Below are positions 1 through 61,418 of a stretch of DNA of 64,000 nucleotides, piece by piece. Made by a program: the position numbers and the translations under genes. The DNA is from Altererythrobacter sp. ZODW24. Its GTDB lineage: Bacteria; Pseudomonadota; Alphaproteobacteria; Sphingomonadales; Sphingomonadaceae. The DNA lies in NCBI RefSeq assembly GCF_003344885.1, contig NZ_CP031155.1:1764001-1828000 (forward strand), read 5' to 3'. The notes beneath the pieces were generated by a model. That model did not search any database and was not told where the DNA came from. It saw nothing but the letters and a program-made list of their open reading frames with translations. Within the stretch, counting starts at the first letter, position 1. The number at the start of each line of letters is the position of its first letter.

Positions 1-859
1 GAGCCTCAACATCCGCTGCATCGCCCCAGCCCGCGATGGTTAGGCGTGCGCCAGCTGTGTTGACGACCTCTGCTGCTGCCAGCCAGCCATCTACCAACGC
101 CGCGATGTTCTTTTTCGGATGAATGCGCCCGAGATAGAGAAATTCGGGTGCTCGCATGGAGGACGCGGGCGGCGCTGGGACAGGTCCCGCATTGGGAATG
201 ATGGTGCTATCCGTTCGCCCACTCTCATCTGCGATGTCATGGGCTTCGCGGCTCGTAAGTGCGTGCAATGCAGTTGCCGCTCGCCAAGATGCGCGCTCGT
301 AACCCGTCCGGGCAAGCGCTTTCTTCCATTTACCGCGCGCCGTGATCCATGGATCAAGCATGCCGTGGGGACTGATCAGATATGCGCCGCCTGTCCGCCT
401 CGACCAGAGATACCCCGCACGGGAAGGATATTGCCAAATTCCGTGCAAGTGGAGGCAATCCAATTCAGCCTCGACCAAGCGGGTGAGCAAGCCAGGCGCA
501 AATCCGATTTGCCGCGGCCCCGAAACGGGCGAGTGTGAAACTGGAATGGAGCCAAATCGCCCGGCATCTTCCGCCGAAAACTCGTCTTCGAGGGCAAAGA
601 TCATCGGCAGCCCGCCGCTTTCCTTGATGATTGCTGCCTGCGCTACAACGGCTTCGAACACACCGCCGCCCAGCCGCGATGCAGAAGCGGTGAGCAAACC
701 AATGCGCTTTCCGGTTAGATCGTTAGTGACGATGTCAGAGCTCGTTTTCTGGCGACTGCACTGGGCGGCGGTGCGCGCGCGGAATGAGCGCTGCCGTAGA
801 TTGCGCTCTGCCAGCTGCCGTTCGCGCGTCCGATAGCCTTGGTTTCGGCGCAGGAACAT
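1..859 (-). CDS. Glycosyltransferase family 4, partial (runs off left edge)
   Basis: The reading frame is open from an ATG at 859 to the window edge (286 codons seen, 3' end missing). The sugar-binding half shows HLHGIWQYPS (about residues 137-146) and ISPHGMLDPW (about 162-171), which are typical of GT4 enzymes of capsule and colanic-acid type loci. LGRIHPKKN (about 244) opens the second Rossmann domain that binds the nucleotide sugar. It probably adds a sugar to a lipid-linked repeat unit on the inner membrane face. The ATG at 859 gives a basic N-terminal extension of about 48 residues that overlaps the end of the polymerase gene by 125 bases. No in-frame ATG, GTG or TTG lies between this ATG and the conserved fold, which starts near 713 (TGKRIGLL). 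The family call is firm; the start is not. Confidence 0.8.
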   Translation of the reverse strand, partial: MFLRRNQGYRTRERQLAERNLRQRSFRARTAAQCSRQKTSSDIVTNDLTGKRIGLLTASASRLGGGVFEAVVAQAAIIKESGGLPMIFALEDEFSAEDAGRFGSIPVSHSPVSGPRQIGFAPGLLTRLVEAELDCLHLHGIWQYPSRAGYLWSRRTGGAYLISPHGMLDPWITARGKWKKALARTGYERASWRAATALHALTSREAHDIADESGRTDSTIIPNAGPVPAPPASSMRAPEFLYLGRIHPKKNIAALVDGWLAAAEVVNTAGARLTIAGWGDAADVEA

Positions 860-2159
860 CTCCCATCAGCCTAGCAACGAATTTCCACACAATGACCGGG
901 GCCATCATGAATAGCCCCATTCTCAGCAATGTTATCGGATATCCGTCCCGGTAGAAGATGATGAGCATGGGAATGAAGCAGAGGAATGCTGCAGTCTGAA
1001 ACGCCGTCTGTCGGCTGAGCATGAACCAGTTGTAGAGTGCGCCAAGCAAGCCGCCCCAAAGCGCGCACCAAAGTGCAACGCCCGCGAAGCCGAGCTGCGT
1101 CCACCCTTCACCTGGCAGCGACCGGGTCATCCCGATCGGGAAGCCGTAGTCATAGAGGTTGAACAAGCGGATCGGTTGGCCAATCGGCTTGTCGCGCCAG
1201 ATTGATCGCGGGATTGGTTCCGTGAAAATCTGCAATTGGCCGACAAAGTATTCGTAAGTTCCGGTTTTGCGCGGGACCGTATGAACCAGATATTCGGTAA
1301 ATTCGAGATTTCCCAAATCCATGCCCTCAAGCGGAGCAAGAGGTATCTGTTCCCAAGCATCCGCTTCGACTGCGGCTTGCTCGCCGCCCAGAGCGCCGCG
1401 TAGGCCAGCGCCTCGATCGAAGCCGACGACATTGAAGATCATTGCTGCGCCCGCGACGAGGGTTAGCACTTTCCATTCGAACCACTGCTTACGCTTTTCG
1501 TATAGGTAGAAACAAGCTAGGCCAAACAGGACCATGATAATCGGCCCGCGCCCGCCGGTGCCCGCACGGAAGAAGACAAAAACGATCAGCGGAATAAGGG
1601 AATACCACCGGAAACGACCGAACCACGCGATTAACAAGGTAATCGGCACGAGAGCGATTTGGGCCTGTTTGACATAACCACTGCCAGATACATTGACCGT
1701 GGTTCCGGTGGCCATATCGAGCTCATACCCCAGCGAGCCGGCTGACCTGTCGATCCACAGGGCATAAAGAGAATAGATCGCAATCGGAGCGAAGATCGCA
1801 ATGGTGACGGCCAGCGGCCGCCGCAGTGCCACCAAGCGTTTCGTCTGGAATGCATCGCGGTTCCAACGCATAGGCGCGCGCCCAAACCACATTGATGCAG
1901 CAGCGAAAGCGATCAAGCCGAGGTTCGTAACGACCAGCGTTGTCACCTTGTCGGCCTCGCTCGGAACGAACTCAAAGACCCGGTAAATCAGCGTGTAATC
2001 GTAGAACCATGCAAGCCACGGTCGAATCACAAAAACCAACCCATGAAAACCCAGATAGAGCGTTAGCGGGTGGAAGATGTTGCAACTGCGGCGCGTCATG
2101 AAGACGGCGATAACCGCAAGGTAAATGACCACCGACGCGATTAGGGCGAACAGATACAT
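735..2159 (-). CDS. Wzy-like O-antigen/exopolysaccharide polymerase
   Basis: A polytopic membrane protein of 474 residues with roughly ten hydrophobic segments, starting MYLFALIASVVIYLAVIAV. The large periplasmic loop contains EPIPRSIWRDKPIG (about residue 315), a motif I know from oligosaccharide repeat-unit polymerases. Its expected role is to join undecaprenyl-linked repeat units in the periplasm of a Wzx/Wzy pathway. The last about 45 residues are Ala/Arg/Pro rich and overlap the start of the next glycosyltransferase gene. It sits 38 bases downstream of the sulfotransferase gene on the same strand. Polymerases diverge strongly, so the exact linkage made cannot be read. An O-antigen ligase is the main alternative. 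Confidence 0.75.
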   Translation of the reverse strand: MYLFALIASVVIYLAVIAVFMTRRSCNIFHPLTLYLGFHGLVFVIRPWLAWFYDYTLIYRVFEFVPSEADKVTTLVVTNLGLIAFAAASMWFGRAPMRWNRDAFQTKRLVALRRPLAVTIAIFAPIAIYSLYALWIDRSAGSLGYELDMATGTTVNVSGSGYVKQAQIALVPITLLIAWFGRFRWYSLIPLIVFVFFRAGTGGRGPIIMVLFGLACFYLYEKRKQWFEWKVLTLVAGAAMIFNVVGFDRGAGLRGALGGEQAAVEADAWEQIPLAPLEGMDLGNLEFTEYLVHTVPRKTGTYEYFVGQLQIFTEPIPRSIWRDKPIGQPIRLFNLYDYGFPIGMTRSLPGEGWTQLGFAGVALWCALWGGLLGALYNWFMLSRQTAFQTAAFLCFIPMLIIFYRDGYPITLLRMGLFMMAPVIVWKFVARLMGDVPAPKPRLSDARTAAGRAQSTAALIPRAHRRPVQSPENEL

Positions 2160-2197
2160 TGGTTAGGTGGCCCGCTCTGTATGGAGGCCGGGCCTGT

Positions 2198-3055
2198 TCA
2201 TACCCAATAGGCCTCTTCCAAAGCGCGTTCACCGAATAATTCGGCTGCCCGTGCCTTCTGCGCCTCGGACCAGCCGCGCCATGCGCCAGCACTAGCCTCG
2301 ACCGATTTCTTGCCGCGGATGACCGGATCTTCGAGCCCGTAATTGTGGTTCTTGTCACCAAATGCGAGCATTTCTGGATCGTAATTGAGGCCGATCTTGG
2401 TCATCGCTGCCGCAAGCGTAGGACCGGGATCGCCGCAGAGTTCACGGTAATCGAGCCGGGTGCATCTGTCCGGCTGAGCCTCTTCGAAAGCGAGCAGATT
2501 GTCGATGGCCTGACGGACGTAAATCATGGTCGATTCAAACGGGTCTTCGATATCATTGAAGCTCCAGCCCCGCTTGTGGATCGAATGGACGATATCGCAG
2601 GGGTGCCGCAGCACCATTACAAAGCGCGCCTTGCGGCCAAACAACCGATCAATGCCGTCAAGGTGGCCTGTATATTGCGGTGTCTTATCAGCCCAGATCT
2701 CCTTGCCCTGCGCCCTTCGGAACGCCTCGTGCTGTGACGCTGCCTTGCGCGCGAGATCACCGCGCATCGCATCGGCATTCTGACCAAACCCCTCATAGCC
2801 AAGCGCAACATCGGCATCATCTAACATAGCGACATAATTGGCGATGAAGAACGTCTCTGGCGGGCAGGCAATCTGCGGGTGGGAATTGAACATCCGGCGA
2901 ACCAAAGAGGTACCCGAACGATGCGCACCTACGATGAAGATGGGGCTTTCGCAGCGGTCCTCATCATCGCGTTCGATCACACGCTCCTGTACGATCAGGC
3001 GCGGACGCCCGATGTACGATTTCACACGATTAAAGTACCAACGCCAGGCGGACAT
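2198..3055 (-). CDS. PAPS-dependent sulfotransferase family protein
   Basis: The 285-residue product has the 5'-phosphosulfate loop in IFIVGAHRSGTSLVRRMF (about residues 39-56) and a second PAPS-binding element around VMVLRHPCDIVHSIHKRGW (about 145-163). These are the signatures of the P-loop sulfotransferase family, which moves sulfate from PAPS to a hydroxyl group. Its place between a polymerase and glycosyltransferases points to a sugar of the polysaccharide as acceptor, but the acceptor cannot be read from sequence. No membrane segment is seen, so it should act in the cytoplasm. It appears to be the first gene of a leftward unit with the polymerase and the edge glycosyltransferase. Confidence 0.85.
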   Translation of the reverse strand: MSAWRWYFNRVKSYIGRPRLIVQERVIERDDEDRCESPIFIVGAHRSGTSLVRRMFNSHPQIACPPETFFIANYVAMLDDADVALGYEGFGQNADAMRGDLARKAASQHEAFRRAQGKEIWADKTPQYTGHLDGIDRLFGRKARFVMVLRHPCDIVHSIHKRGWSFNDIEDPFESTMIYVRQAIDNLLAFEEAQPDRCTRLDYRELCGDPGPTLAAAMTKIGLNYDPEMLAFGDKNHNYGLEDPVIRGKKSVEASAGAWRGWSEAQKARAAELFGERALEEAYWV

Positions 3056-3288
3056 AGTAATGTTCGATCAAGTATGAGGTCTGCAAGGATGGAGCTTAAC
3101 GGCATAATCCGGCGAGACCAGCGCGATTGTGTTGCAAATGCACAGTTTCCAAACGTTAGAAGCGCCGGGCGGATCGTATGATGCAGGCAACCGGCTGGAC
3201 CATGCAGAGAACCGTGGCTACTGCCGGTTCAGCCGCGCAAGCTGCCCGCATAATTTTCTGATGTGACCTGAGTTTCTGGATTTCATTT

Positions 3289-4434
3289 ATGACCAATCGA
3301 TCTGGAAAGCCGGCGAAGGTTGTGTTTGTCTGGGAGAATTTGGGGCCAAGCCACATTGACCGGCTTGAAGCATTGAACGACCGCTTTCCGGATCAGGTCT
3401 TTGCTGTGCAGCTCTCTGCATCCAGTCACACATACAAATGGGATGGTACCAGCGGGCAAGCCGTTCCAACGACCACGCTGTTTGATCAGCCCGAAGACGC
3501 GACCGGCCTAGCCTGCATGACGGCCCTAGTCGGAGCGGTCCGCAAGTTGGGCGCGACTGACGTTTACCTGTGTCACTACCAGCTTTGGCCGATGCTCATG
3601 TCAGCGATGATCCTGCGGCTGCTGGGCAAACGCGTCGTTGTGATGATTGATTCAAAGTTTGACGATTACCCCCGCCGGTTGTGGCATGAGGTAGGAAAGT
3701 CAGCCTTCCTTTGGCCCTATAATGCTGCCCTTACGGCTAGCTTGCGCAGCCGTGACTACCTCCGTTTTCTGGGCTTTAGGAAGCGCCAGATCGAACTTGG
3801 TTATGACACATTGTCGGTCGCCAGAATACGCGGTCAATCAGCCAGTTTGCCTGCCCCGGGCGGCGCCCTCCATAGTGACCGAGACTTCCTGATCATCGCT
3901 AGGCTCGAGGAAAAAAAGAATATCGGTTCCGCCTTGGAGGCCTATTCCCTGTGGCAAGCCAGAGGAGGTACTGGGCGGGTGCTGCGAATTCTTGGATCTG
4001 GCGCTCTGGAGGATGAACTTCGCGATAAGTCTGTGGCGCTTGGAATCGGCGACGCGGTGATTTTCGAAGGTTTCGTTCAAACCGAAAGGGTGAGCGAAGC
4101 CCTCAGCAATGCGCTGTGCCTGATCCTGCCCAGCACCGAAGAGCAATTCGGCCTCGTCGTTATCGAGGCGATGGCGATGGGAGTGCCCGCTCTTGTCTCC
4201 AGCAACGCTGGCGCTGTCGATGTTATGATCGACAATGGGGTGAATGGCTGGGTGATTAATCCGCGCTCGCCCGCGGCTCTTGCGGCGGCGATGACTTCGC
4301 TTTCGGACGATGAAAGCTGCTGGAAGACGATGGCAAGCGCCGCGCAAACAGACAGTCTGCGCGGCGATGCCAACCATTTTGTCACAGCCGTGGCGAAATT
4401 ATCGGGGCTGGGTCAGGCCCCTAGCGACGAGTGA
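3289..4434 (+). CDS. Glycosyltransferase family 4
   Basis: The protein has 381 residues. The C-terminal half has the GT4 pattern: RDFLIIARLEEKKNIGSAL (about residue 198) followed by the EX7E-type motif EEQFGLVVIEAMAMG (about 284-298), which binds the nucleotide sugar. The N-terminal half is an acceptor domain with VFVWENLGPSH near the start. It lies alone on the plus strand, is divergent from the sulfotransferase gene, and its last 22 bases overlap the end of the leftward beta-helix gene. Donor and acceptor are unknown. It is most likely one of the transferases that build the repeat unit. Confidence 0.85.
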   Translation: MTNRSGKPAKVVFVWENLGPSHIDRLEALNDRFPDQVFAVQLSASSHTYKWDGTSGQAVPTTTLFDQPEDATGLACMTALVGAVRKLGATDVYLCHYQLWPMLMSAMILRLLGKRVVVMIDSKFDDYPRRLWHEVGKSAFLWPYNAALTASLRSRDYLRFLGFRKRQIELGYDTLSVARIRGQSASLPAPGGALHSDRDFLIIARLEEKKNIGSALEAYSLWQARGGTGRVLRILGSGALEDELRDKSVALGIGDAVIFEGFVQTERVSEALSNALCLILPSTEEQFGLVVIEAMAMGVPALVSSNAGAVDVMIDNGVNGWVINPRSPAALAAAMTSLSDDESCWKTMASAAQTDSLRGDANHFVTAVAKLSGLGQAPSDE

Positions 4435-6485
4435 TCGAAAGCGATCACGATGTCAGCCGGCGCTTTATCGATGGTGCCGCTGGTCGGATTTTCAAACACC
4501 ACACTCGCGAGGCCTGCTTTCGCTTCAGCCGACCGGATCGAGAGACCTGACAGGCCGGAGCTAAGGGTCAGGCTGCGAATATGGTCTGTCGCTGCCATGT
4601 CGGGAATTGTGAACTCGGCAGTAGTGGATCCGCCTGCAGCGATCGCAGGCAAGTCGTAGCCTCCGAAACGCGCTTCGATAGCGTTGCCATCGTCGCGGTT
4701 GCTGCGCCAACTGAGCTCGCTTTCCGTCCAGTCTGCGCCGTCAGGTTCGGCCATCCATGCCTCAATCTCGACAAATGCCGCGGCATTTTCGAGACCGCCT
4801 CCGGCTGGCGTGGCGACCACAATTTGCAGTGGCTTGTCACGCTCGGTCCACTGCACGCCGCCAACCGTCCCACCGATAATCTCGAGTTGGGAGTCCACTC
4901 CGGGCTGAATGCCTCCCATCGAACCATGCGCGACGTTCCCGCCATTGTCGCCCTGGCGCCCGAGCGTGAAGGCCTGCAATTGTTGTCCGGGCCCGACCGT
5001 GATTTCTGGCGACACATAGACCCGGCACTTCACCAACAGGCCGCTAGGCCCAAGCGTGCTCAAATATTGACCGTCGCGAAGATTAAAGCGGCGGCGATAA
5101 GGCCGCAGCTTGTCTAGGTCATAGGTCTCACGCGAGCCGCCGATTTTCATGTCCAAAACACCACTCATCCGGCCTATTGGTAACTGATACGGGTCATGTG
5201 AGTGAACCAAAACGGTTCGGCCAGATATGCAAATATCGCCATCGTGCCCAGAAACGCCATTGGATTGGACGGAGAAGCAATAGCCGCCATCGCCTGTGAT
5301 CGTTGTGTCATGCAAGCTGATCCGTGAGCGACCACTGGCAGAGAAAACCTTCACTTGATCGCTCAGCGAATTGCCATTTTCATCATAGAAGTTGTTTTCG
5401 AAGCGCGCGCCAATCGCTTGGACTTCCGCTCCAGCCTCTGCACGGATCATGGTGCGCGCACCGGCAGCGCTCGGGCGAACAAGTTGGATGTTGCGGCATT
5501 CAGCAAAAGAAAAAGCCGCGCCGCTGCTTGCTTGAGTGATGCGGACACCTTCGGTCCAGCAATCAGTAAGCGTTGCGCCATCGACAAAGTGCAATCCAAT
5601 GGTTGCCGCTGAAAGATTGCGTGACCCAATCCGGTTGAAAGAGAGCCGTTCACCGCCGTAAATTGCGACCCCCACCTGAGCCAGCTCGGTCTCCATGGTG
5701 ATGTCGCTGATGGTCAGGTCACGTGCGAAATCAGCTTTACGCAAATGGCGATTGCTGAGGGTGGGGGCGAGCGTGAAGCCTTCAGGGATTTGCTTGTCGA
5801 GTGTGACGGTGTCGCCCGCGATTTCTGTCACTCTGGCGATGCCCCAATTATAGGTTTCTGGGGTGTCGAAGGGGACATCGCCGAGCATCCAGATCACTGA
5901 ATCGCCGACAGCCAATTGCGCCGAAAGGCCAGCTTCCAGCGTCACTGCCTGCGCTCCGGCCGCTACATCGCTTGCCAATTGAAGATCGGTGATCCCGCCA
6001 GCATACCACCAGCCGCAAACCAGCCCACGGCCGCTGGTTACGGTGAACGTTGCACCGCGGCCATTGATCCGTCCAGCGTCAACTGGAACGACGTAACAGG
6101 GCTGCCCGCCTTGACCGTATTCGATCTCAGCATTTGGCACAGGGGCGATGCGGTAGGCGGCGGACTCGAACGCTATGCCGCTGGCGCCAATTGCCGAACT
6201 GTAAGCATGGGCGGATGCAATTGCGGGCCTGTCATCTCCCGTTCCATCGCCAGCCGCGCCGGCGATCTCGGCAGAGATTGTTCCGCCCGAAGGGGTTGCT
6301 CGATAGGCGACGCCATTCTGGCTGGTGGTAACGAGCTGAGGGTGCGCGCCCGCTAACGCCGCTGCGTCGCTATCGGCAACATAGATTCCGGGGGTGTGCC
6401 CGATGGTGTCCCGGCCAGTGGTTTGGATGAGGTCGGTGCCTCCGATGTTGGTCGCTGAAATGTCGGCGAAAGTCAGATTGCTCAT
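4413..6485 (-). CDS. Tailspike-like right-handed beta-helix protein (pectate-lyase-3 type)
   Basis: The protein has 690 residues. After a short N-terminal module (MSNLTFADISATNIGGTDLI) comes GDGTGDDRPAIASA (about residue 79), which is close to the opening motif of pectate-lyase-3 domains and phage tailspikes. Residues from about 100 to 500 show short beta-rich repeats fitting a right-handed parallel beta-helix. The last about 190 residues look like separate beta domains. There is no signal peptide. The start has a good Shine-Dalgarno (AAAGGAAA about 6 bases upstream). It is the last gene of a three-gene leftward unit, 30 bases after the SGNH gene. It may be a polysaccharide depolymerase or binder acting on the local polymer. 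A captured phage tailspike is equally possible. No catalytic residue can be assigned. Confidence 0.7.
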   Translation of the reverse strand: MSNLTFADISATNIGGTDLIQTTGRDTIGHTPGIYVADSDAAALAGAHPQLVTTSQNGVAYRATPSGGTISAEIAGAAGDGTGDDRPAIASAHAYSSAIGASGIAFESAAYRIAPVPNAEIEYGQGGQPCYVVPVDAGRINGRGATFTVTSGRGLVCGWWYAGGITDLQLASDVAAGAQAVTLEAGLSAQLAVGDSVIWMLGDVPFDTPETYNWGIARVTEIAGDTVTLDKQIPEGFTLAPTLSNRHLRKADFARDLTISDITMETELAQVGVAIYGGERLSFNRIGSRNLSAATIGLHFVDGATLTDCWTEGVRITQASSGAAFSFAECRNIQLVRPSAAGARTMIRAEAGAEVQAIGARFENNFYDENGNSLSDQVKVFSASGRSRISLHDTTITGDGGYCFSVQSNGVSGHDGDICISGRTVLVHSHDPYQLPIGRMSGVLDMKIGGSRETYDLDKLRPYRRRFNLRDGQYLSTLGPSGLLVKCRVYVSPEITVGPGQQLQAFTLGRQGDNGGNVAHGSMGGIQPGVDSQLEIIGGTVGGVQWTERDKPLQIVVATPAGGGLENAAAFVEIEAWMAEPDGADWTESELSWRSNRDDGNAIEARFGGYDLPAIAAGGSTTAEFTIPDMAATDHIRSLTLSSGLSGLSIRSAEAKAGLASVVFENPTSGTIDKAPADIVIAFDHSSLGA

Positions 6486-6515
6486 AGCGTTTCCTTTGTT
6501 TCTTGATCGCGAGAT

Positions 6516-7808
6516 CTATTGCGCGGCGATCAAGGGGCCGACCGCAGCGGCGATGCTGTGGGCGACCTGGCTTGCGCAGAACTCGTGGCCTTCATGTGTG
6601 AAATGCGCGCTGTCCGCGCCGGTACACCAATCAGCATTGCCGTCGCCAAGTGGGGCAGTTTGCCTGCCGGAACCGGTCGACCATTTGCGCGCTAGATTAT
6701 CGATGAACGCCACGTTGCGAGGGAAGCTCGCTGCGGCATTCCGTTTGGCATCTCGAACTGCAATATTGCTTGCGGCGCTGTTCTCTGCACCGCCTCGCGA
6801 GAGGATCGGTCCGGACATGAATATGATCGTGTCAGGCCGGCTCGCCAGAACATTGGCAATCCACGCTCTTACCAATCCTTCGAGCTCGATCTGACTGATC
6901 AGGCCGCCGTCATTGCGGCCGCCGAGTTCAATGATCACATCTGGAGCGGGGGCGATGACATCGAGTGCCTGCCTCGCGCCGAATGTCGCCTTTGCTCCGC
7001 CATTATCATTGACCCAGCCGGTGCCGCCCACGCCCGAAACCCAGCAATCAGGCTGGCCCAGCAAGTTTGCTAGCAATGTACCTTGCGAAGGCTGCGCCGC
7101 GTTCGCGAATGTTGCCGTATCAAACACCGTCGAAAGCATGCTGTCGCCGTGGACCAGCAGATTCAACCCATTCACCGGTTTTGCGGGCTGCACATCATAT
7201 TCCGGTGCAGTGTAAACGCCGCCAAAGGCGCCGTTTGATGACCATTCAAGTTCGTAAACCCGCGCTCGCCTTTCAGTCGCGCTGCCATCCCCCCAATTGA
7301 CGCCGATTACTCTGGGTGCGCCCACCGGCGTACCATCGGAACTGTTGCCAAGTAGGCCGAGGTGGACATATTCGCCATCAACCTTGAGCCGGAAACCGCC
7401 AAAAGCATCGCCATAAAGCACGCGCAATTCGAGGGCCGGTGCCCATGAAACGAAGCGCACGCGTTGGCCCTGGCCTTGTTGCGCGTCAGCAGCCGGATCG
7501 CCGCTGATTCCGGGATGGACCGTCATTGGACGGACAAACTGATTCTTTGGATATTGAGGGCCGGCAACGCTCCAGACGCCGCCGGTCAGGTGGAATTGTT
7601 CGGGCTCGGATAGGGCCGAATGCAGAACGCTGCTGCCGATGATCGACGCGGTGGCGGGAGCTGAAATAGCCGGCAAGGCAGCGGCCATTTCTGGCGCGCT
7701 TAAGCCGGTCCTTTCCATCGACCGACGCAAGGTTGAGAGGATGCCAATCCGGCGGCTGCGAGCAGTCTCGGCGGCAGTCAGTCCGCGTGCTGCAAAATCG
7801 AGCGCCAC
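6516..7808 (-). CDS. SGNH/GDSL-type hydrolase (phage-tail-like context)
   Basis: The catalytic blocks of SGNH hydrolases are visible: GDS in LLVHGDSMLS (block I, nucleophile Ser), GGRND in IIELGGRNDGG (block III Gly-Asn pattern), and DSAHFTHEGHEF (block V Asp-His). Such enzymes remove acetyl or other acyl groups, often from sugars. I chose the GTG at 7808, one base after the stop of the upstream gene, giving 430 residues. The same frame stays open to an ATG at 7910, but that start would overlap the upstream gene by 101 bases. No signal peptide is seen. It may deacetylate the polysaccharide made by this locus or serve as a virion-like decoration enzyme. The fold is firm and the substrate is inferred. 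Confidence 0.78.
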   Translation of the reverse strand: MALDFAARGLTAAETARSRRIGILSTLRRSMERTGLSAPEMAAALPAISAPATASIIGSSVLHSALSEPEQFHLTGGVWSVAGPQYPKNQFVRPMTVHPGISGDPAADAQQGQGQRVRFVSWAPALELRVLYGDAFGGFRLKVDGEYVHLGLLGNSSDGTPVGAPRVIGVNWGDGSATERRARVYELEWSSNGAFGGVYTAPEYDVQPAKPVNGLNLLVHGDSMLSTVFDTATFANAAQPSQGTLLANLLGQPDCWVSGVGGTGWVNDNGGAKATFGARQALDVIAPAPDVIIELGGRNDGGLISQIELEGLVRAWIANVLASRPDTIIFMSGPILSRGGAENSAASNIAVRDAKRNAAASFPRNVAFIDNLARKWSTGSGRQTAPLGDGNADWCTGADSAHFTHEGHEFCASQVAHSIAAAVGPLIAAQ

Positions 7809-7809
7809 C

Positions 7810-8238
7810 TCAGTTAGCCAACCGGAATTGGGCTGTCCCCGAAGCAATTGTGATGTCGAGATAGAAGCTCGCCGATGGATCGGCTTCTTCCCAAACTGGC
7901 TCGCAGGCATTGGCGGTGAAGTTTGCCCATGGTTGCCCCCCGATCGTTACTGGAAGGCGGGTCGCGCCGCCGTCGGTTGAGCGCAGCAGACTGACCTCGC
8001 CGTTCCAGGTGCCCGACAGACTGAGGGTAATGGGCCTGCCAGTGGCTGGCATCCATGGCCCGGCGATGGTGCTGGCCGTGGCGTTGCCCTCAAGCGCATC
8101 TGGCGCCGCGAGCTGTTCGAAGGAGACCGGGAACGGGGTGGCGGATGACACAAGCGCAAGCGACCCGTCAGGATCGGAAAAGCCAACTGCATTGGCGGGG
8201 GCAAAACCAGCGGGAACTGAGATCGGTGTTTGTGGCAA
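7810..8238 (-). CDS. Small beta-rich protein, phage-tail-like, unknown function
   Basis: The protein has 142 residues and reads as alternating beta strands without membrane segment or signal peptide. A central stretch (LSLSGTWNGEVSLLRSTDGG, about residues 71-90) resembles small structural modules I associate with phage and prophage tail proteins, but I cannot name a family. The start codon is TTG at 8238, supported by a strong GGAGG site (8244-8248, minus strand) five bases upstream. It is the first gene of the unit with the SGNH hydrolase (one-base gap) and the tailspike-like protein. Its place suggests an adaptor or carbohydrate-binding part that works with them. Confidence 0.6.
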   Translation of the reverse strand: MPQTPISVPAGFAPANAVGFSDPDGSLALVSSATPFPVSFEQLAAPDALEGNATASTIAGPWMPATGRPITLSLSGTWNGEVSLLRSTDGGATRLPVTIGGQPWANFTANACEPVWEEADPSASFYLDITIASGTAQFRLAN

Positions 8239-8243
8239 AGTAA

Positions 8244-8248
8244 CCTCC
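8244..8248 (-). promoter_or_regulatory. Strong ribosome binding site for a TTG start
   Basis: GGAGG on the minus strand lies five bases before the TTG at 8238. No ATG or GTG in this frame is as well placed, so this site decides the start of the 142-residue gene. Confidence 0.7.
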
Positions 8249-8270
8249 GTGACGATTCGAAGATTATTTA

Positions 8271-8287
8271 ATAACCATAACGGTTAT
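8271..8287. repeat. Inverted repeat upstream of the phage-tail-like unit
   Basis: ATAACC (8271-8276) and GGTTAT (8282-8287) form a perfect six-base inverted repeat with a five-base spacer. It lies 33 bases upstream of the TTG start of the leftward three-gene unit, in an AT-richer part of the 188-base divergent gap. It could be an operator. A second, wider repeat (CGATAGG near 8320 and CCTATCG near 8352) lies further on. Confidence 0.35.
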
Positions 8288-8426
8288 GTGTAGGAAAGTT
8301 CTTTCTCTATTTGGTGAGCGATAGGGCGTCTCGATTGGATTGCTTGCGACCTATCGTTAGGCCATGGTCGGGCTATCGGTTGGGAAATTCGCCTGACGCA
8401 GGCTCGTTGGTTATTGGAACGCAGAA

Positions 8427-9671
8427 ATGAACATCGGTGTTTTCCATCCCGGTACACAGCATAGCTGGCAGACCGCGCTCGCTCTTCAACAGGCGGATCG
8501 TTTGGCTTGGTATGCTACTTCTCTTTTCTACAAGCCCGATGAATGGCCATACCGAATAGAGCGATATCTCTCTGGCAAGTTGCGGAAGCGGGTGTCGGCA
8601 GAGTTTGGCCGCCTTGCGATGCCAGCCTTAAACCCCGAGCTCGTGCAGGCCAGCGGTGCCGCTGAATGGTTTGAACGGATCGCCAACCGGCTTGGGCAAC
8701 GCGAATTGGCCAAGTGGCTCGACCGGCGCGGCAATCGCAACTTTGTCCATGGCATTAGCGAGCTCGTACGCGCGCCGGGCGATCTGGCATTGTGGGGCTA
8801 TAATGGCAGCAGCCTGACCAGTTTTGAATTGGCTAAACAGGTTGGAGGCAGGCCTTGCATTCTGGATCGGACCATCGGTGATGCCCGCGCCTACAATGCC
8901 GCGATGGTTGATCTGCAAGACCGCTTCGGTGAGTGGTTCTTGCCCGTCGAGCGCGCAGTCCCGGAAGATACAATCGCGCGCGATGACCGCGAATTTGAAC
9001 TCGCCGATCACATCTTGGTTGGATGCGAATATGCCCGCCGCACATTGATTGATCATTCGCCCGTTGTTTCAGTCGCGTCCAAAACGCAGGTTCTGGGTTA
9101 TTGCTTCGACGAGGCGCTGTTTTCGGACATTCCGGCCCCGAAACCAGTGAAGAAAAATAGACCTGTTCGCTTCCTCTTTCTCGGCCTCGTGATCCCGCGC
9201 AAGGGTATTCACCACATTCTGGAAGCGCTGGGCCAAATCCCGGAAAGCGAAGCGGAACTCACGATAGTGGGGGATATGAAAGTGCCCGCCGAAGCCTTCG
9301 CGAAATATGCCGGCCGGGTGACTTACAAACCCACCGTCGCGCGCTCCCAAGTGCCAAAAATCATGGCCGAACATGACGTGTTGCTACTTCCGACTTACCA
9401 CGAAGGCGCGGGCATCGTGCTCTACGAAGCGCTTGCTGCGGGAATGGGCATCATCCAGTCAAACCGGGCCGCTCTGGTCGCAACGCCAGAGACCGGTCTC
9501 ATTCTAGACCAGCTGGATACCAACACTGTTTTGCAGGCACTGCGCGTGCCGATTGAAGACCGTGACCGGCTGAACGGATGGCGCGCCGCCGCGCAAAGCG
9601 AGGCGGCTAACTACACCTTCGCCAAATACCGCCAGGGCATCGAGACCTTTTTGGCGAAGGCGGGGATATAG
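8427..9671 (+). CDS. Glycosyltransferase family 4
   Basis: The protein has 414 residues. It starts MNIGVFHPGTQHSW and its C-terminal half carries VRFLFLGLVIPRKGIHHIL (about residue 247) and a GT4 EX7E-like region, HEGAGIVLYEALAAGMG (about residue 325). The N-terminal part is unusually long and charged before the second domain, which is common in this subgroup. It is a single rightward gene, divergent from the phage-tail-like unit and convergent with the fkbM operon (gap of three bases). It is expected to add one sugar of the repeat unit in the cytoplasm. Sugar specificity cannot be told. Confidence 0.83.
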   Translation: MNIGVFHPGTQHSWQTALALQQADRLAWYATSLFYKPDEWPYRIERYLSGKLRKRVSAEFGRLAMPALNPELVQASGAAEWFERIANRLGQRELAKWLDRRGNRNFVHGISELVRAPGDLALWGYNGSSLTSFELAKQVGGRPCILDRTIGDARAYNAAMVDLQDRFGEWFLPVERAVPEDTIARDDREFELADHILVGCEYARRTLIDHSPVVSVASKTQVLGYCFDEALFSDIPAPKPVKKNRPVRFLFLGLVIPRKGIHHILEALGQIPESEAELTIVGDMKVPAEAFAKYAGRVTYKPTVARSQVPKIMAEHDVLLLPTYHEGAGIVLYEALAAGMGIIQSNRAALVATPETGLILDQLDTNTVLQALRVPIEDRDRLNGWRAAAQSEAANYTFAKYRQGIETFLAKAGI

Positions 9672-9674
9672 AGT

Positions 9675-10421
9675 CTACTGGCCGCTGAGAAAGTCAGACT
9701 TCAGCGCGATCCCGTCGCTCGTCCAACCACCGTAGTGAAAATCGTAACCTGCGTCACAAAGATGCTTAGCCACAGCCGCTAGATCACGGCGTCCAAGATG
9801 CCCGGTTTCAAGCTGGATCAAGGTGGGCGACACGGCAGACAAATCCAAGGTTTGCAGGATCTGCCAGTCATACCCTTCCGCATCGATTTGCAACAGATCG
9901 AGCTCGGCAATCGAATGTTTGGCGAACAGGGCGTCGAGGGTCATGGCCGGGACGTCAATCGACTGCAGGCTTGATGTGCTGACATCGAGCTGCTGCGCCA
10001 ATACCGCCGGATTGTTCGATACCATAGACTCAGGCTGCATTTCGGCACGGGCTGGCTTGTAGCCTTCGGGCGGAAGATAAAGCCTCAGGCTATCTCCGTC
10101 TGAAATGGCGACATTCTCAAACGCTAACCGGTCAGCACATTCTGCGTAATTGGCTTTCAATTGTTCAAACAAGGGCGGCTGTGGTTCGACCAGAACGCCG
10201 GTCCAGCCGCGATTGAGGATGTAAGGCCTGAGAGGATCGAAATACTTTCCGTCATTGGCCCCGATTTGTACGAACTTCAGCGTATCGCCATGCTTTGCCA
10301 TCAGCGATTCGACCACCAGTTCGAAAACCGGAAGCGGACGATAGCTTGCCGGGGCTTTGCGAACCTCGATGCCGCGCTTCAGCAGCCGGTCTTGCGCCAT
10401 TCGGCGAAATTTTTTGATCAC
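9675..10421 (-). CDS. FkbM family methyltransferase
   Basis: The 248-residue protein has the SAM-binding start KFVQIGANDGKYFDPLRPYI (about residues 49-68), followed by GVLVEPQPPLFEQLKANY, the pattern of FkbM O-methyltransferases. DLLQIDAEGYDWQIL (about residue 173) is the family's second conserved block. FkbM enzymes in polysaccharide loci usually methylate a sugar hydroxyl, so a methylated residue in the polymer is likely. It is the last gene of the leftward operon and overlaps the flippase stop by four bases (ATGA). Confidence 0.85.
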   Translation of the reverse strand: MIKKFRRMAQDRLLKRGIEVRKAPASYRPLPVFELVVESLMAKHGDTLKFVQIGANDGKYFDPLRPYILNRGWTGVLVEPQPPLFEQLKANYAECADRLAFENVAISDGDSLRLYLPPEGYKPARAEMQPESMVSNNPAVLAQQLDVSTSSLQSIDVPAMTLDALFAKHSIAELDLLQIDAEGYDWQILQTLDLSAVSPTLIQLETGHLGRRDLAAVAKHLCDAGYDFHYGGWTSDGIALKSDFLSGQ

Positions 10422-11776
10422 TGGTCCGCTCCTTTGTCGCTTGGCAGGCGCATATGGCTCGGCAAGATCGCTAAAAATGTATCGCGCCCAAACGCCAACG
10501 CGCCGATATTGATGCGGGTTGAGATAATGATCGTGACCAGCATCAATGCCTCGAGCGCAACGCCCGCTGCTGCTGCTCCGCTAACGCCCATACTGCCGAC
10601 CAGCACATAGGTCATCCCGATGCTCAGCGCTGCCCCGATTACGAAGACGTAACTATATGCCTCGTGCCGATTGATCGCGAGCAGTAAGTTGCCAAGGGGG
10701 TTCCATACCACCGCCAGCGCCGCCGCGATCCCGGTGAGGGTTATCATCAATTGCGGCGGCTGGATCGCGCCGCCGGTCCAAACCCTTAGAACGTCCGCTC
10801 CAAACACGGCAATTATGAATCCGAATATCACTCCGCAAATCACATTCAGGGCGGCGACCAGTCCACCAATCCGGGCAACCCGTCCGTGGTTCTCTTGCGC
10901 GAAGGCGGCGGTGAAGTCCGGCATTAGCGGGATTACGAACGTCGACATTATCTGCAGGCCGACCCGCGATACAGTACGCAAAGACGTATACAGCGGCACC
11001 ATCGCTGCGCCGCCCGCTGCGCCGATTGCGATTGCCGTACCTTGCAGAAACCCTGCCTGCCCAAGCGGCAATAGCATCGCTGCAAATGCTGGACGGAAAA
11101 GCATGCGGACCCGGTCACCACTGGCCTTTTTGCTGCCAAGCCTCATCCAACGGGCGAAACGCTTTGAGAGTATCACGTGAGCCAACAGCCCGGCGCTGCG
11201 GACAGCAAGATAGGCGATCGCAGCATCAAGTGGTGAGCCGCCAAACCAGACAATAGCCAGAACCGAGAGTCCCTCAACTAGCTGGATCGTTGCAATCAAA
11301 CTGATCGACTGGGCTTGCCTTCCTTCCGACCGTGCAACCGCTGCGAACAGGAATATCTGGAGCGATATGATGCCGTAGAGGCAAAGTATTGCGAGCGCGG
11401 TCCGCGCATCGTCTGCGTTCATTCCGCCATCGACCGCCAAGATGGAGCTAGGCAGATATGCGACGACCGCAGCGGCAATCACCAGCGTGACGGCCGAAAT
11501 GCCTATGATCATTGACCAGGCGCTTTGGAATGTGACCAGCGCTTCGTCACGATCGGCTTTCGCGACCTCGGCAATGATCCGGTTGCCTGCTGCAGTGCTG
11601 AAACCGAAGTCGCTCGCCGCGAGGAAAACCGGAATGGCCGACAGCATCAGCCATTGGCCGTAGAGCGGCAATCCCCATTGCAGTGCGAGGACGGGGACCA
11701 GCGCTAGCTGGATAAGTGCGCCCACCAACTTGCCATAGCCCATGGCCGCAACGCTCATAAGAATCCGGCGCCTCAT
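10418..11776 (-). CDS. Wzx-like polysaccharide flippase (MATE/MOP superfamily)
   Basis: A 452-residue membrane protein with about 12-14 hydrophobic segments. The beginning, GYGKLVGALIQLALVPVLAL followed by GLPLYGQWLMLSAIP, fits the MOP exporter superfamily, as does ASDFGFSTAAGNRI (about residue 54). Its role would be moving undecaprenyl-linked repeat units across the inner membrane for the Wzy-like polymerase at 735-2159. It overlaps both neighbours by four bases, which points to translational coupling within the operon. Confidence 0.83.
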   Translation of the reverse strand: MRRRILMSVAAMGYGKLVGALIQLALVPVLALQWGLPLYGQWLMLSAIPVFLAASDFGFSTAAGNRIIAEVAKADRDEALVTFQSAWSMIIGISAVTLVIAAAVVAYLPSSILAVDGGMNADDARTALAILCLYGIISLQIFLFAAVARSEGRQAQSISLIATIQLVEGLSVLAIVWFGGSPLDAAIAYLAVRSAGLLAHVILSKRFARWMRLGSKKASGDRVRMLFRPAFAAMLLPLGQAGFLQGTAIAIGAAGGAAMVPLYTSLRTVSRVGLQIMSTFVIPLMPDFTAAFAQENHGRVARIGGLVAALNVICGVIFGFIIAVFGADVLRVWTGGAIQPPQLMITLTGIAAALAVVWNPLGNLLLAINRHEAYSYVFVIGAALSIGMTYVLVGSMGVSGAAAAGVALEALMLVTIIISTRINIGALAFGRDTFLAILPSHMRLPSDKGADQ

Positions 11777-12633
11777 TGCGGTGCATCCGGTAAATCGATT
11801 GCGGCTGCCTCAGTTAGGATCGAGGCAAGGCGCGTGCGCGAAGTAGTGGCAAATATCATTCGGGCGTTTGGATGCCGTGTGGCCAACAACAGCATTGCAG
11901 CCAGTAAGTCGGTGGTCGCGCTGTCGGCGCGGCAAGTCAGTTCGGCACGAATTTTTTCTAATGCGCTGTTCGCCGCGCCGCTGCGCGACAAGGCGATCGC
12001 GGCGCTTGTTCTGACCGAATGGAATATCCTTGGCTCGGCGGAAAGTGAGCAAAACTCGGATTCTCGCGGGGCCACCTGAACCACGCAACCTTCTCGCCCT
12101 GCTTTGACGGGCCCGGTGTGCGCGTAGCCGATGTTCTTGGTTCGCCCGCTTTTCTGCTCGCCGGTAAACACTTCCCAGCTTTGAGGCGCAATATCGCCTG
12201 GTTCCGCCGCATGGAGCAGCAGCAGCTCCAGCGTTTCAACGCGAAGCAATTCCCGGCTCCGCTCAACCGACTGCTGCAAGGTGGATTTGCCATACTGTCC
12301 TGCCGAGGCGGGCGCATGATATTCCAAAAGCTCAGGCTGCCAAGCGGCAGTCCCGCCTGCGCCAGTTTTTGAGCGCAGCCATTTAGCCCAGCCACGCAAG
12401 GCAGATACTCCGGGGCGCGGTAGCCCTGCCTTTGTGTGAATTTTTGCTGCATTATCACCGGCAAGAACTTCGCCTAGCAGTTGCTCCGCTGCGCCCATTC
12501 CATAAGCTGGCGCCGTATCGAAATGCATCAGTCCGGCAGTGCAGCAATCTTCGATAAGTTGCCGCGATGCTCGAGCGCAGCCCCCACCCGCGAGCCGCGC
12601 CGTTCCGAAAATCATGCGGTCGAGCAATTTCAT
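11773..12633 (-). CDS. Aldo/keto reductase family protein
   Basis: The ATG at 12633 shares its A with the stop of the upstream gene (TGATG) and gives 286 residues starting MKLLDRMIFGTARLAGG. The family's residues can be seen: the Asp and Tyr in HFDTAPAYGMGAAEQ (about residues 35-49), the Lys in KIHTKAGL, and the His in LELLLLHAAEPGD. Such NADPH-dependent reductases act on carbonyls of sugars and similar compounds. Next to a GMC-like oxidoreductase, it may help convert one sugar or sugar acid for this polymer. The frame extends upstream to 12768, but that part lies inside the previous gene and is unlike the family. Confidence 0.8.
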   Translation of the reverse strand: MKLLDRMIFGTARLAGGGCARASRQLIEDCCTAGLMHFDTAPAYGMGAAEQLLGEVLAGDNAAKIHTKAGLPRPGVSALRGWAKWLRSKTGAGGTAAWQPELLEYHAPASAGQYGKSTLQQSVERSRELLRVETLELLLLHAAEPGDIAPQSWEVFTGEQKSGRTKNIGYAHTGPVKAGREGCVVQVAPRESEFCSLSAEPRIFHSVRTSAAIALSRSGAANSALEKIRAELTCRADSATTDLLAAMLLLATRHPNARMIFATTSRTRLASILTEAAAIDLPDAPQ

Positions 12634-14192
12634 CACCCGCGACCCGACAAGTGGTCGGCCAATCTCAGGCCGGTCGCAATTGCAGTCAGGGTGGGGTTGG
12701 CGAAACTGCCCGACGGGAATGTCGCAGCGCCCGCCACATACAGGTCGGGCATTCCGAAGACCTGACAATCGCTGTCCACCACGCCGCCTTCAGCCGACGC
12801 CGCCATTCTAGCGCCGCCTGCCTGATGACTCGAGTCAGTGCATTTATCAAAGAAGGCCGGATCAGCGGCTTCGACTAGCGGGTCGAGCTCGATCAGTCCC
12901 AGCCCGCGACCTTCGCAGGCCGCCTTGGTTGCTTTCGCGCAATGTGCCACCGCGGCCATCTCGGTGCCATTAACCGACCAATGGACTGCGATATCGGCCC
13001 GCTCCGGATGAACATCCTCTTGCAGGGCGATGTAGCTACCTATTGACGGCACCTGCTCGAATTCTACGCCTAGAGACGCATCGCCGCTCAGGAACTTGCC
13101 CGAGCGACGGCTGGTCAGATAGCGCCATGCTAGCGGTGCCAATATCCTTGCCGACTGCGCAGTTTGGCGAAGGTCTTGCAGCGCTCCAGTCGGGCCGTTG
13201 CCTATCCTTTTGGCCAGCCCCTTCATCTCGGCAATCGCCTCCCCTGCACCAAGGCGGGCGTTAATCGTCATTGCGCAATTTGAGAGTGCGTTCGCTTTCA
13301 TAGTGGCATCGGACAGCCTGATCTTCGGCGTAATCTTATGCTCTCGTGCATAGAGCGTGTCGAACATGTCGCCAAAAACCTTGCGGTTCTGCGGGTGGAT
13401 CGTTCCGGCCACACCATGCAGATGGTCGATGAACCACTTGCCGACATGGCCATTCTTGCCGAGCGGAGTTTGCGGCAGCTGGGCTTTTGCACGCAGCAAA
13501 AGGCGCGAAATCTCCAAGGTGCCGCAGGCGAGCAACGTCGATTTGGCGCTGAGCGTATGTTTGCCCCCAGTGTGATCGCGCAATCGCACACCAGAAATGC
13601 GCCCGCTTGTATCATCGGACACAACACCGATTGCTTCGTGACCCATGAGGATTTGAGGGCCGTCATTGCTAGCAATCGCTGCGTCAAAATGATGGTTGAA
13701 GTCGGGCCTTCTCATCCAGACGCTTGGCGTGATTTGTAAGCCGCTGCCAAATTCCAGAGTGTGGCCAGTCTTCTCCTGCCAGCTTACTTCCAGTGCCTCT
13801 GCATCGTGAGCGATGCCGAGCATCCCCAATGCTTCCTCAATCCACGGTGCAATCTCGTCATGGGTAAATGGCCAGCCTGGCTTGTTGCTTGCTGGATCGG
13901 GCAGGAAATCAGCCGGTGAGAAGGGCATCAACTGGCCGCCCCACAGGCGGGTTGTGCCGCCAAGGCCTTTATACCGTCCCCGGGTCAGGCCGAGGTGTTC
14001 GCGCGGCCCGGTTTGTTGGCCCGAATTGAAATTCTGATAGTCAGCCGCCAGTGCATCGCTGCCAGTTTCGACAACGCAAACGTTCTTGCCGCTCTGCGAG
14101 AGCTTGATTGCCATTGTGAGCCCCACCGCACCTGCTCCGACGATGATAACGTCGAAGACTTGGCTTTCAGATGGGCAGGAAGGGAGTATCAA
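12633..14192 (-). CDS. GMC-type FAD-dependent oxidoreductase
   Basis: The 519-residue protein has the FAD Rossmann motif in FDVIIVGAGAVGLTMAIKLS (about residues 13-32). GLGGTTRLWGGQ (about residue 76) is typical of the GMC family, and the C-terminal part carries SSHQAGGARMA and DLYVAGAATFPSGSFANPTL, the conserved cap with the catalytic His region. It would oxidise a hydroxyl group of a sugar or polyol with FAD. The start is TTG at 14192, inside a TTGA overlap with the preceding glycosyltransferase stop. The substrate is unknown. The pairing with the next-gene aldo/keto reductase suggests linked oxidation and reduction steps. Confidence 0.82.
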   Translation of the reverse strand: MILPSCPSESQVFDVIIVGAGAVGLTMAIKLSQSGKNVCVVETGSDALAADYQNFNSGQQTGPREHLGLTRGRYKGLGGTTRLWGGQLMPFSPADFLPDPASNKPGWPFTHDEIAPWIEEALGMLGIAHDAEALEVSWQEKTGHTLEFGSGLQITPSVWMRRPDFNHHFDAAIASNDGPQILMGHEAIGVVSDDTSGRISGVRLRDHTGGKHTLSAKSTLLACGTLEISRLLLRAKAQLPQTPLGKNGHVGKWFIDHLHGVAGTIHPQNRKVFGDMFDTLYAREHKITPKIRLSDATMKANALSNCAMTINARLGAGEAIAEMKGLAKRIGNGPTGALQDLRQTAQSARILAPLAWRYLTSRRSGKFLSGDASLGVEFEQVPSIGSYIALQEDVHPERADIAVHWSVNGTEMAAVAHCAKATKAACEGRGLGLIELDPLVEAADPAFFDKCTDSSHQAGGARMAASAEGGVVDSDCQVFGMPDLYVAGAATFPSGSFANPTLTAIATGLRLADHLSGRG

Positions 14193-15439
14193 AGCTGCTT
14201 GCCGCCCGCTTCACGCAGCAATTCGGTCTCGAAGCGGGCAATAATGGCGTCGCGCTCCCAACGCTCAGCGGCTCTTCGCGAAGCTTGCGCCCCTAAATTT
14301 GCTGCTTTGACCGGATCATCGAGCAATTCTGCGATAGCTGCCGCGAAGGCTTCGGAATCGCCCGGGGCGGTCGTAGTTCCGCAGCCTTGAACTTCGTCTG
14401 CAAGCCCTGTGCCCTTAGCCGCAGTGGCCACGGTCGGGCGGCCAGACAGCAACATGTTGGTTAGCTTTGAGGGCAGTACTAAATCGGCCGCATCCGTTAT
14501 TTGCGGAAGCAAATGCACGTCAGCCAGTGCCAGCAATCCGCCAACATGCTCGGCAGGTTGCAGGTCATGCAACTGGACATTTCCCAGCTTGGAAGCAAGC
14601 TGTTCCAGACGCGCCTTGTTCGGGCCCTGACCGCAAATTACGAACGTCAAATCATCTCGCTTCGACAGGCTTTTCGCTGCCTTGATTATGATTTCAATCC
14701 CTTGTTTGTTGGCGATGTTACCCGAATACAGCGCGACCTTCTTTCCTTCGAGATGCCACTGTTTCCGGTACTCAGCGGCCTGTTCGGCGTTGGGCGCGAA
14801 ATCGGCATTCGCCCAGTTTCTTAGCTCGAACGTCCTTCCAGGGGATATGCCTTTCTCATGCAGTTTCGCGATCATTTGGGGGCTGATCGTTGAAACGCGA
14901 TCCGCCAGCTTGAGCAGACCATTTTCGAGCGTTCTGGCGAGACGGGCACGGATACCATTCGGTTTGAGCAGGCCTGTGGCGAATGCGGCTTCTACCTCGA
15001 AGTCTTGGATATGTAGCCAAAGCTTGGCGCCGGCTAAGCGAGCGGCGAGCCAAGCCGTCGGGACCGACAGCGCTGACGGGGCCACGGTAAGGACTATATC
15101 AGGCCGCTGCCGGCGGGCCATGCTGATCGCAGGGATTAGTGCGGCCAGAGCAAAGCTCACCAGATGCAGGGTGCGTTTCAGCCCACTGGGCTCGGTAGGA
15201 ATGTAGTGCCTAACCCGCTTGACGCCGACCCCATTTTCAATGTCGCGTATGCCGCTTGGCGGCTGGTCTGGGTGCCGCTGCCATTGAGGATAATATGCTT
15301 GGCCGGCGACAACTTCGACAACGTGACCACGAGCTACGAGCGCCTCGGCCAACCCAGAGGTGTAAGGCCCGATGCCCACTTGCTCAGGTGCATAGTTAAG
15401 GCCGACGATCAGCAATCGGAGCGGGCCGGTATCGCTCAT
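14189..15439 (-). CDS. WcaI-type glycosyltransferase family 4
   Basis: The 416-residue protein begins LRLLIVGLNYAPEQVGIGPY, the hallmark N-terminus of WcaI-like (colanic-acid fucosyltransferase type) enzymes. VVEVVAGQAYYPQW follows at about residue 40. The second domain starts at KVALYSGNIANKQGI (about residue 229) and has VLPSKLTNMLLSGRPTVATA (about residue 329) where the nucleotide sugar binds. In colanic acid loci WcaI sits next to gmd and fcl and transfers fucose. The same neighbourhood here makes GDP-fucose a sensible donor, though this is inferred. It overlaps fcl by four bases. Confidence 0.87.
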   Translation of the reverse strand: MSDTGPLRLLIVGLNYAPEQVGIGPYTSGLAEALVARGHVVEVVAGQAYYPQWQRHPDQPPSGIRDIENGVGVKRVRHYIPTEPSGLKRTLHLVSFALAALIPAISMARRQRPDIVLTVAPSALSVPTAWLAARLAGAKLWLHIQDFEVEAAFATGLLKPNGIRARLARTLENGLLKLADRVSTISPQMIAKLHEKGISPGRTFELRNWANADFAPNAEQAAEYRKQWHLEGKKVALYSGNIANKQGIEIIIKAAKSLSKRDDLTFVICGQGPNKARLEQLASKLGNVQLHDLQPAEHVGGLLALADVHLLPQITDAADLVLPSKLTNMLLSGRPTVATAAKGTGLADEVQGCGTTTAPGDSEAFAAAIAELLDDPVKAANLGAQASRRAAERWERDAIIARFETELLREAGGKQL

Positions 15440-17465: not shown

Positions 17466-17546
17466 TGCTTGGTTGTGTCCCCGAAGTCTGCTGCTTGTCT
17501 CTGTGTAGCTATATTGCACTTGCGAGCAAGCGCTAGGCCTCAATGT

Positions 17547-61385: not shown

Positions 61386-61418
61386 GGGAAATTCCCCCTT
61401 CACCCTAAAAATCTGTAA

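Follow-up and report, generated by a model that had tools for sequence, protein, structure and literature searches.

Why should three phage-tail-like genes lie inside a locus for polysaccharide synthesis, and how would their products leave the cell? We addressed these questions for a 64,000-nucleotide stretch of Altererythrobacter sp. ZODW24 (contig NZ_CP031155.1, positions 1,764,001–1,828,000; hereafter the window), in which a small beta-rich protein, an SGNH hydrolase and a 690-residue spike-like protein are encoded side by side. An earlier note on this DNA had proposed a domesticated depolymerase/deacetylase set or an anti-phage or immunity-like arrangement. Our analysis better supports another reading than a free-standing set of this kind. 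The trio has a promoter element in common with lysis genes of the type found in gene transfer agents (GTAs), and it is probably the head-spike cassette of a GTA of the Rhodobacter capsulatus type (RcGTA), with enzymatic fibers, placed inside a polysaccharide locus. We give this reading a rough probability of 0.70, lowered from 0.72 because the start of the fiber was found in two forms.

Organization of the cassette

The trio and its element were laid out as follows. Gene calls were made by script, with open reading frames (ORFs) picked by length and by G+C content at third codon positions; overlapping frames can be mis-assigned.

8272–8297, reverse strand: promoter element TTTCCTACA-N-ATAACC-N5-GGTTA, upstream of the base-like gene
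7810–8238, reverse strand: base-like protein, 142 residues, with a conserved N-terminal arm and a beta-sandwich; TTG start after GGAGG
6516–7808, reverse strand: SGNH-hydrolase fiber, 430 residues, GTG start at 7808; N-terminal VALDFAARGL
4413–6485, reverse strand: spike-like protein, 690 residues, with N- and C-terminal similarity to spikes of loci L106 and L081

The three leftward genes were found where the earlier note had placed them, separated by gaps of 1 and 30 bases. The gap of 1 assumes the GTG start at 7808, which agrees with the start of the ortholog (MPIDFAARGL...) in another species of the genus (genome G001); the longest ORF for the SGNH gene (from 7910, 464 residues), which overlaps the base-like gene, is probably over-extended. 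All three genes are kept in G001 at ~80% identity, at the equivalent position of a syntenic locus, and we therefore regard the trio as more than a chance arrangement. Inspection by eye agreed with the note that none of the three window proteins has a signal peptide.

Recurrence in the Sphingomonadaceae and locus context

A profile of the base-like protein matched 80 of the 397 family genomes, in 34 of 96 genera. We took 20 regions around strong profile matches, and a fiber gene could be read in 19 of them (L231, on a short contig, showed none). In all 19 the fiber gene followed the base-like gene directly, starting −4 to +3 bases from its stop. The fibers ranged from 382 to 746 residues and their bodies varied: SGNH hydrolases, relatives of the window's 690-residue protein and, by eye, a pectate-lyase-type spike (L130) were all seen. 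A conserved peptide lay at the start of all 19: D-x-x-A-R-[GA] in 16 and, in the other 3, an A-L-x-L form (SALGLSALGLA in L236, SALALPAMGLA in L239, SALALPALGLA in L241) that is like the base-binding residues of the RcGTA fiber.

The surroundings of these genes were also consistent. At least two polysaccharide-gene neighbors were present in 16 of the 20 profile-found regions versus none of 20 regions around GTA clusters, and homologs of the glycosyltransferase next to the trio (8427–9671) occurred in 10 of the 20. A second view came from loci with an exact copy of the promoter element: a polysaccharide neighbor was found at 10 of 11 such loci with a base-like gene, versus 2 of 26 with an endolysin gene and 2 of 43 others. 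Two of the base-like loci (L102 and L119) overlap the reference set; leaving both out, the comparison is 8 of 9 versus 2 of 26 endolysin loci. A search with the SGNH protein found it in 7 of 98 genomes, that of ZODW24 included; in the other six genomes the locus has polysaccharide genes around it (by eye) and a small gene immediately upstream of the SGNH gene. The link with polysaccharide synthesis that the note had drawn is supported, as is the phage-derived nature of the trio, and an adjacent prophage was looked for and none seen in the window (read by eye from the ORF list). In the window itself, the context is the following.

735–17543 (about), no strand assigned: polysaccharide locus enclosing the trio, syntenic in G001; functions mostly by eye
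8427–9671, forward strand: glycosyltransferase gene, divergent from the trio (Pfam match)
3289–4434, forward strand: glycosyltransferase-like gene, running convergently towards the 690-residue gene; assigned only by inspection and by likeness to other loci

Of the two rightward glycosyltransferase flanks that the note had described, the first is confirmed by Pfam and the second stays at the level of likeness. The latter gene and the 690-residue gene overlap tail to tail by 22 bases.

A promoter element common to base-like and lysis genes

The sequence of the element before the base-like gene in the window is TTTCCTACACATAACCGTTATGGTTA. It is exact in six of the seven comparable SGNH loci (window included) and degenerate in the seventh (L013). 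With up to three mismatches it occurs at one site in the ZODW24 genome, where the backwards control gave two. At up to two mismatches it was present in 110 of the 397 family genomes, and the backwards control gave none among the matches listed.

An exact search across 84,980 species returned 113 stretches, of which 80 were covered by the downstream analysis. Judged by title, these 80 are presumably all from Sphingomonadales except L093, a metagenome-assembled genome of Pseudomonadota. The first downstream ORF could be called at 67 of the 80 loci, and model matches identified 26 GH108 endolysins, 2 GTA_holin_3TM proteins and 4 matches to the RCAP_Rcc01079 spike-base model. By eye, about 10 further ORFs were helix-turn-helix (HTH) proteins and 11 were of the base-like type (including the 4 spike-base-model matches); the remainder showed no clear gene. 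The HTH proteins carry a GWTPERQRAF-like motif (L086, L094, L095, L099, L101, L104, L131, L132, L149, L153) and may be regulators or small-terminase-like. At L084, L085, L091, L096, L108 and similar Sphingorhabdus-type loci, the exact element precedes stretches that contain a recurring short ORF (MTGTLAGKPVGTVGAIGC-like) and no clear gene; these stretches are possibly a repeated non-coding unit.

The half-site T[GT]TCCTAC was found upstream of 29 of 30 profile-found base-like genes, and TAACC-N4-5-GG upstream of 17 of the 30. The half-site had first been seen in seven loci and its general form was derived from these same 30 genes, which include those of the window, of G001 and of some genomes from the earlier element search. 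Among the 239 called genes of the 20 regions, T[GT]TCCTAC stood before 14, all of them base-like, and before none of the 225 other genes. The core AACC-N5-GG also lies shortly before TTGACAT in the GTA promoter of ZODW24 and of 15 of 20 relatives, by a pattern that was written after the sites had been seen.

CtrA was considered as the binder of the palindrome and set aside: its published sites, GTAAC-N6-TTAAC and TTAAC-N6-GTAAC, are unlike this inverted repeat (PMC6363796, partial text). Because of this difference, a dimeric activator appears likelier than CtrA, judging from the form of the site. A CtrA-like response regulator (by eye) is encoded in the window at 60690–61403. Separately, TTTCCTACA bears a likeness to a DnaA box; the GTA activator GafA has a DnaA-like domain (PMC6363796, PMC9638019, both partial text). 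In practical terms, the element could be used to locate accessory GTA genes of Sphingomonadales that lie away from the head-tail cluster.

The base-like protein

The note had called the first product small and beta-rich, and the predicted model agrees: in it, the 142 residues form a beta-sandwich behind a flexible arm (mean predicted local distance difference test score, pLDDT, 73). Its best structural matches were prophage YomS (Z 10.6), the cement protein of phage KHP40 (8.2) and a viral turret (7.4), on a scale where unrelated proteins reached 8.1. Foldseek gave no match in the PDB at E 0.001, and in the viral library six phage matches at that threshold, all of them small or partial (best 6.1e-5). 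The RcGTA base was not among the matches listed by VIA-align, an absence that excludes nothing.

The family relationships were followed through a second class of base-like proteins, 115–118 residues long and found beside SGNH genes. This class showed a weak match to the spike-base model NF048002 (E 6.7e-4, below the cut-off; best 2.8e-5; 4 of 67 first ORFs) and aligned to true bases with a probability of 49% (hhalign, E 1.8e-4). The 142-residue class aligned in turn to the shorter class with a probability of 95.6% (E 1.3e-8), mainly over the arm. A true base of the Rcc01079 family in locus L040 (NF048002 E 2.3e-30) also lies behind the element, and a protein 54% identical to it (L029/L049) likewise follows the element, with polysaccharide genes next to it. 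In genome G321 this 54%-identical base and a partner of 487 residues occupy L049 10024–11780. The window protein works like a base by its position, partner and promoter; we do not assign it to the Rcc01079 family. We word the claim in this way because neither NF048002 nor the profiles of true bases match the window protein.

The SGNH fiber and the 690-residue protein

The designation of the second product as an SGNH hydrolase was sound, with GDS, GxND and DxxH-type residues all present. The residues D222-S223, N299-D300, D399 and H402 (430-residue numbering) are invariant in six relatives, and for this reason we expect an active esterase or deacetylase, as far as sequence can predict one. No Pfam family matched the protein at E up to 1. 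Its longer version matched the phage head-decoration family phrog_9703 (E 1.5e-10), and distant relatives of its body were found in 28 phage records (23–33% identity among the 20 matches listed); no relative was found in viral contigs.

The third product has the length of 690 residues that the note had given, and the spike part of its description gained from the similarity to L106, where a spike behind a base-like gene is 37% identical over 100 residues (E 4e-11). The beta-helix part fared less well: Pfam gave End_N_terminal (E 0.024) and Pect-lyase (0.43), both under the cut-off, and the fold was not resolved in the AlphaFold model (mean pLDDT 36). The N-terminal part is common to the spikes that follow base-like genes in L106 and L081, and the C-terminal part is common to L081. 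A protein of this kind behind an SGNH gene was seen only in the window and in G001, no family-wide search having been made. Neither the base-like nor the 690-residue protein matched any phage record; PDB sequence searches gave no credible match for any of them.

The gene transfer agent cluster of the same genome

The ZODW24 genome contains its own head-tail cluster of the RcGTA type (C1, 1395382–1409265), with terminase, portal, protease, capsid, tail tube and an Rcc01698-type gene (Rcc01698_C). In the stretch L073 (~1395382–1405824 of C1), identity to the G001 counterparts is only 49% for the small and 67% for the large terminase subunit, and 73–94% for most other cluster genes.

For the family-wide comparison, GTA_TIM (PF13547) was tried as a marker and gave no match in the ZODW24 genome and one weak match in 397 genomes. 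Because it was useless in this family, PF09343 was adopted, and the presence of the GTA gene g12 was scored by it at the genome level. We also used the main promoter of the GTA in genomes that lack PF09343. All 36 element-positive genomes of this kind were compared with 36 chosen from the 110 element-negative ones, and the promoter was found in 21 and 11, respectively (p 0.03). With the base-like gene as the criterion, the promoter was present in 7 of 9 genomes versus 25 of 63 without the gene (p 0.07). Six PF09343-positive genomes, 6/6 with the promoter, had served to write the promoter pattern. Behind the promoter in g12-negative genomes, 18 of 22 stretches contained one or more GTA genes or fragments and 4 contained none (L190, L191, L242–L261); these 22 were read out of 32 g12-negative genomes with the promoter, and one stretch was only 1.1 kb.

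Comparison with known systems

The closest parallel is the head spike of RcGTA, made of GhsA (Rcc01079, the base) and GhsB (Rcc01080, the fiber). In its structure, a jelly-roll base pentamer grips the fiber through the N-terminal residues IALGLGLGL (PMC7296036, partial text). The head-spike genes of R. capsulatus adjoin capsule genes and are co-regulated with them (PMC10218006, partial text), and GafA and CtrA trigger the late GTA genes located elsewhere than in the cluster, namely those for head spikes, tail fibers, endolysin and holin (PMC9638019, PMC8601537, partial texts). The window's cassette is alike in combining a small beta-rich, base-like protein with a fiber that has a hydrophobic N-terminal peptide, in lying outside the head-tail cluster and beside polysaccharide genes, and in belonging to a set that includes endolysin and holin. 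It differs in that its base-like protein is longer, has a conserved arm and escapes the spike-base model; in that it comes from Sphingomonadaceae, with an SGNH hydrolase as the fiber and an extra spike; and in its promoter element, of which we found no description in the papers covered.

By description, the cassette also resembles the RcGTA tailspike TspA (Rcc02623), which is a polysaccharide-active spike linked to the GTA; its gene lies outside the cluster and is controlled by the GTA activator. Unlike the trio, TspA adjoins lysS, and it is reported from Rhodobacterales and not from other Alphaproteobacteria (PMC13420450, preprint, partial text). Phage head-decoration and esterase proteins share a related SGNH body, but no phage surrounds the window genes. 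In the literature covered, which leaves out most subscription papers, we found no report of spike cassettes in polysaccharide loci of Sphingomonadales, and the word "spike" is absent from three comparative GTA papers (PMC9765227, PMC10883770, PMC9836097).

Proposed function

In the mechanism that we propose, the 142-residue protein would be a base docking on the particle head, probably via its N-terminal arm, and it would hold the SGNH protein through the peptide LDFAARGL. The hydrolase domain would then be displayed, and it would bind and de-esterify a cell-surface polymer, perhaps the product of the locus itself. The 690-residue protein may be a second spike of the cassette, either polymer-binding or polymer-cleaving. 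A GTA activator, possibly GafA-like, would turn on the operon, the lysis genes and the head-tail cluster jointly in producing cells. Sharing of the element with GTA-type lysis genes suggests the exit route, namely particles released by lysis; because the trio proteins would leave on particles in this way, no signal peptide would be needed.

GTA production kills the producer and can be favored only when clonal cells or close kin alone receive the benefit; polysaccharide receptors are one proposed means of such restriction (PMC10883770, partial text). Since the cassette sits inside the locus that would make its receptor, receptor and binder would be inherited and swapped together, and particles would be aimed at cells with the same coat. 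That coat loci of Sphingomonadaceae carry exchangeable GTA spikes with polymer-modifying enzymes, as a greenbeard-like kin targeting whose swappable fibers can outlive the particle genes, is a tentative proposal, and we hold it to be possible at less than even odds. If it is true, coat and recognizer travel together and DNA is preferentially delivered to same-coat cells. A receptor-binding cassette inside a receptor-synthesis locus, in many genera, would be a concrete and testable way to confine the benefit of a GTA. Such cassettes also draw attention to esterases and spikes that would already be fitted by nature to individual exopolysaccharides.

Evidence on the other side and alternative explanations

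Several results weigh against a GTA spike cassette. At the level of proteins, NF048002 did not match the window's base-like protein at E up to 1, and a profile alignment of its 142-residue class to true bases also gave no match. The 690-residue protein lacks the base-binding peptide. The conserved fiber start takes two forms (16 and 3 of 19) rather than one throughout. One SGNH protein (L097 3518–4906) has an apparent signal peptide before its conserved DPVARGLS (by eye), and it is the only example encountered that points towards export by Sec. At the level of loci, L228, L230 and L236 have no polysaccharide neighbors and L231 has one.

At the level of genomes, GH108 is absent from ZODW24 and present in one of the seven genomes searched. 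The g12-type gene of ZODW24 is split over two frames, which may be a sequencing error; that of G001 is a single frame of 770 residues. Neither the element nor the base-like gene was associated with g12 (74/110 vs 177/287 genomes, p 0.35, and 57/80 vs 194/317, p 0.12, respectively), and strong base-like matches alone gave the same picture (39/60 vs 212/337, p 0.88). The missing association may be due in part to repeated loss of the GTA. In genomes G004 and G017, all that is left of the cluster behind the promoter is the end of its last gene, with base-like and SGNH genes still open; this pattern fits recent GTA loss or a second function.

The likeliest alternative to the GTA cassette is a polymer-editing set of the cell's own, in which a phage-derived SGNH esterase and a spike trim or release the polysaccharide and are exported by an unseen route, with no particle. 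It accounts for the location of cassettes in polysaccharide loci and for their survival in genomes that have lost the GTA cluster, for the apparent signal peptide in L097 and for the lack of a genome-level link to g12. However, the window proteins themselves show no such peptide by eye, the element elsewhere precedes mostly lysis genes, and the base-like gene precedes a fiber in every readable region (19/19). We consider this explanation unlikely.

Alternatively, the cassette could be a relic of a GTA decaying in the lineage, now without function, as the split g12 gene and the frequent fragmentation of GTA clusters in the family (seen in 18 of 22 stretches, the other 4 having no piece left) would suggest. 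Decay of this kind sits poorly with three open genes conserved at ~80% with G001, invariant SGNH catalytic residues and an exact element, and the split in g12 may itself be an error; we therefore think it quite improbable. Spikes of a true phage, a tailocin or an anti-phage decoy lying in the locus by chance are a very improbable source, for although the SGNH body has distant relatives in 28 phage records and phage decoration and turret proteins have folds similar to that of the base-like protein, no prophage was seen by eye in the window, no phage record matched the base-like or 690-residue protein, and no viral contig matched the SGNH protein.

Other observations

Elsewhere in the window, an aldo/keto-reductase-like gene was found at 11773–12768. 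Its later part is odd when compared with an open copy at L223 11192–12085, and by eye the gene may be frame-disturbed.

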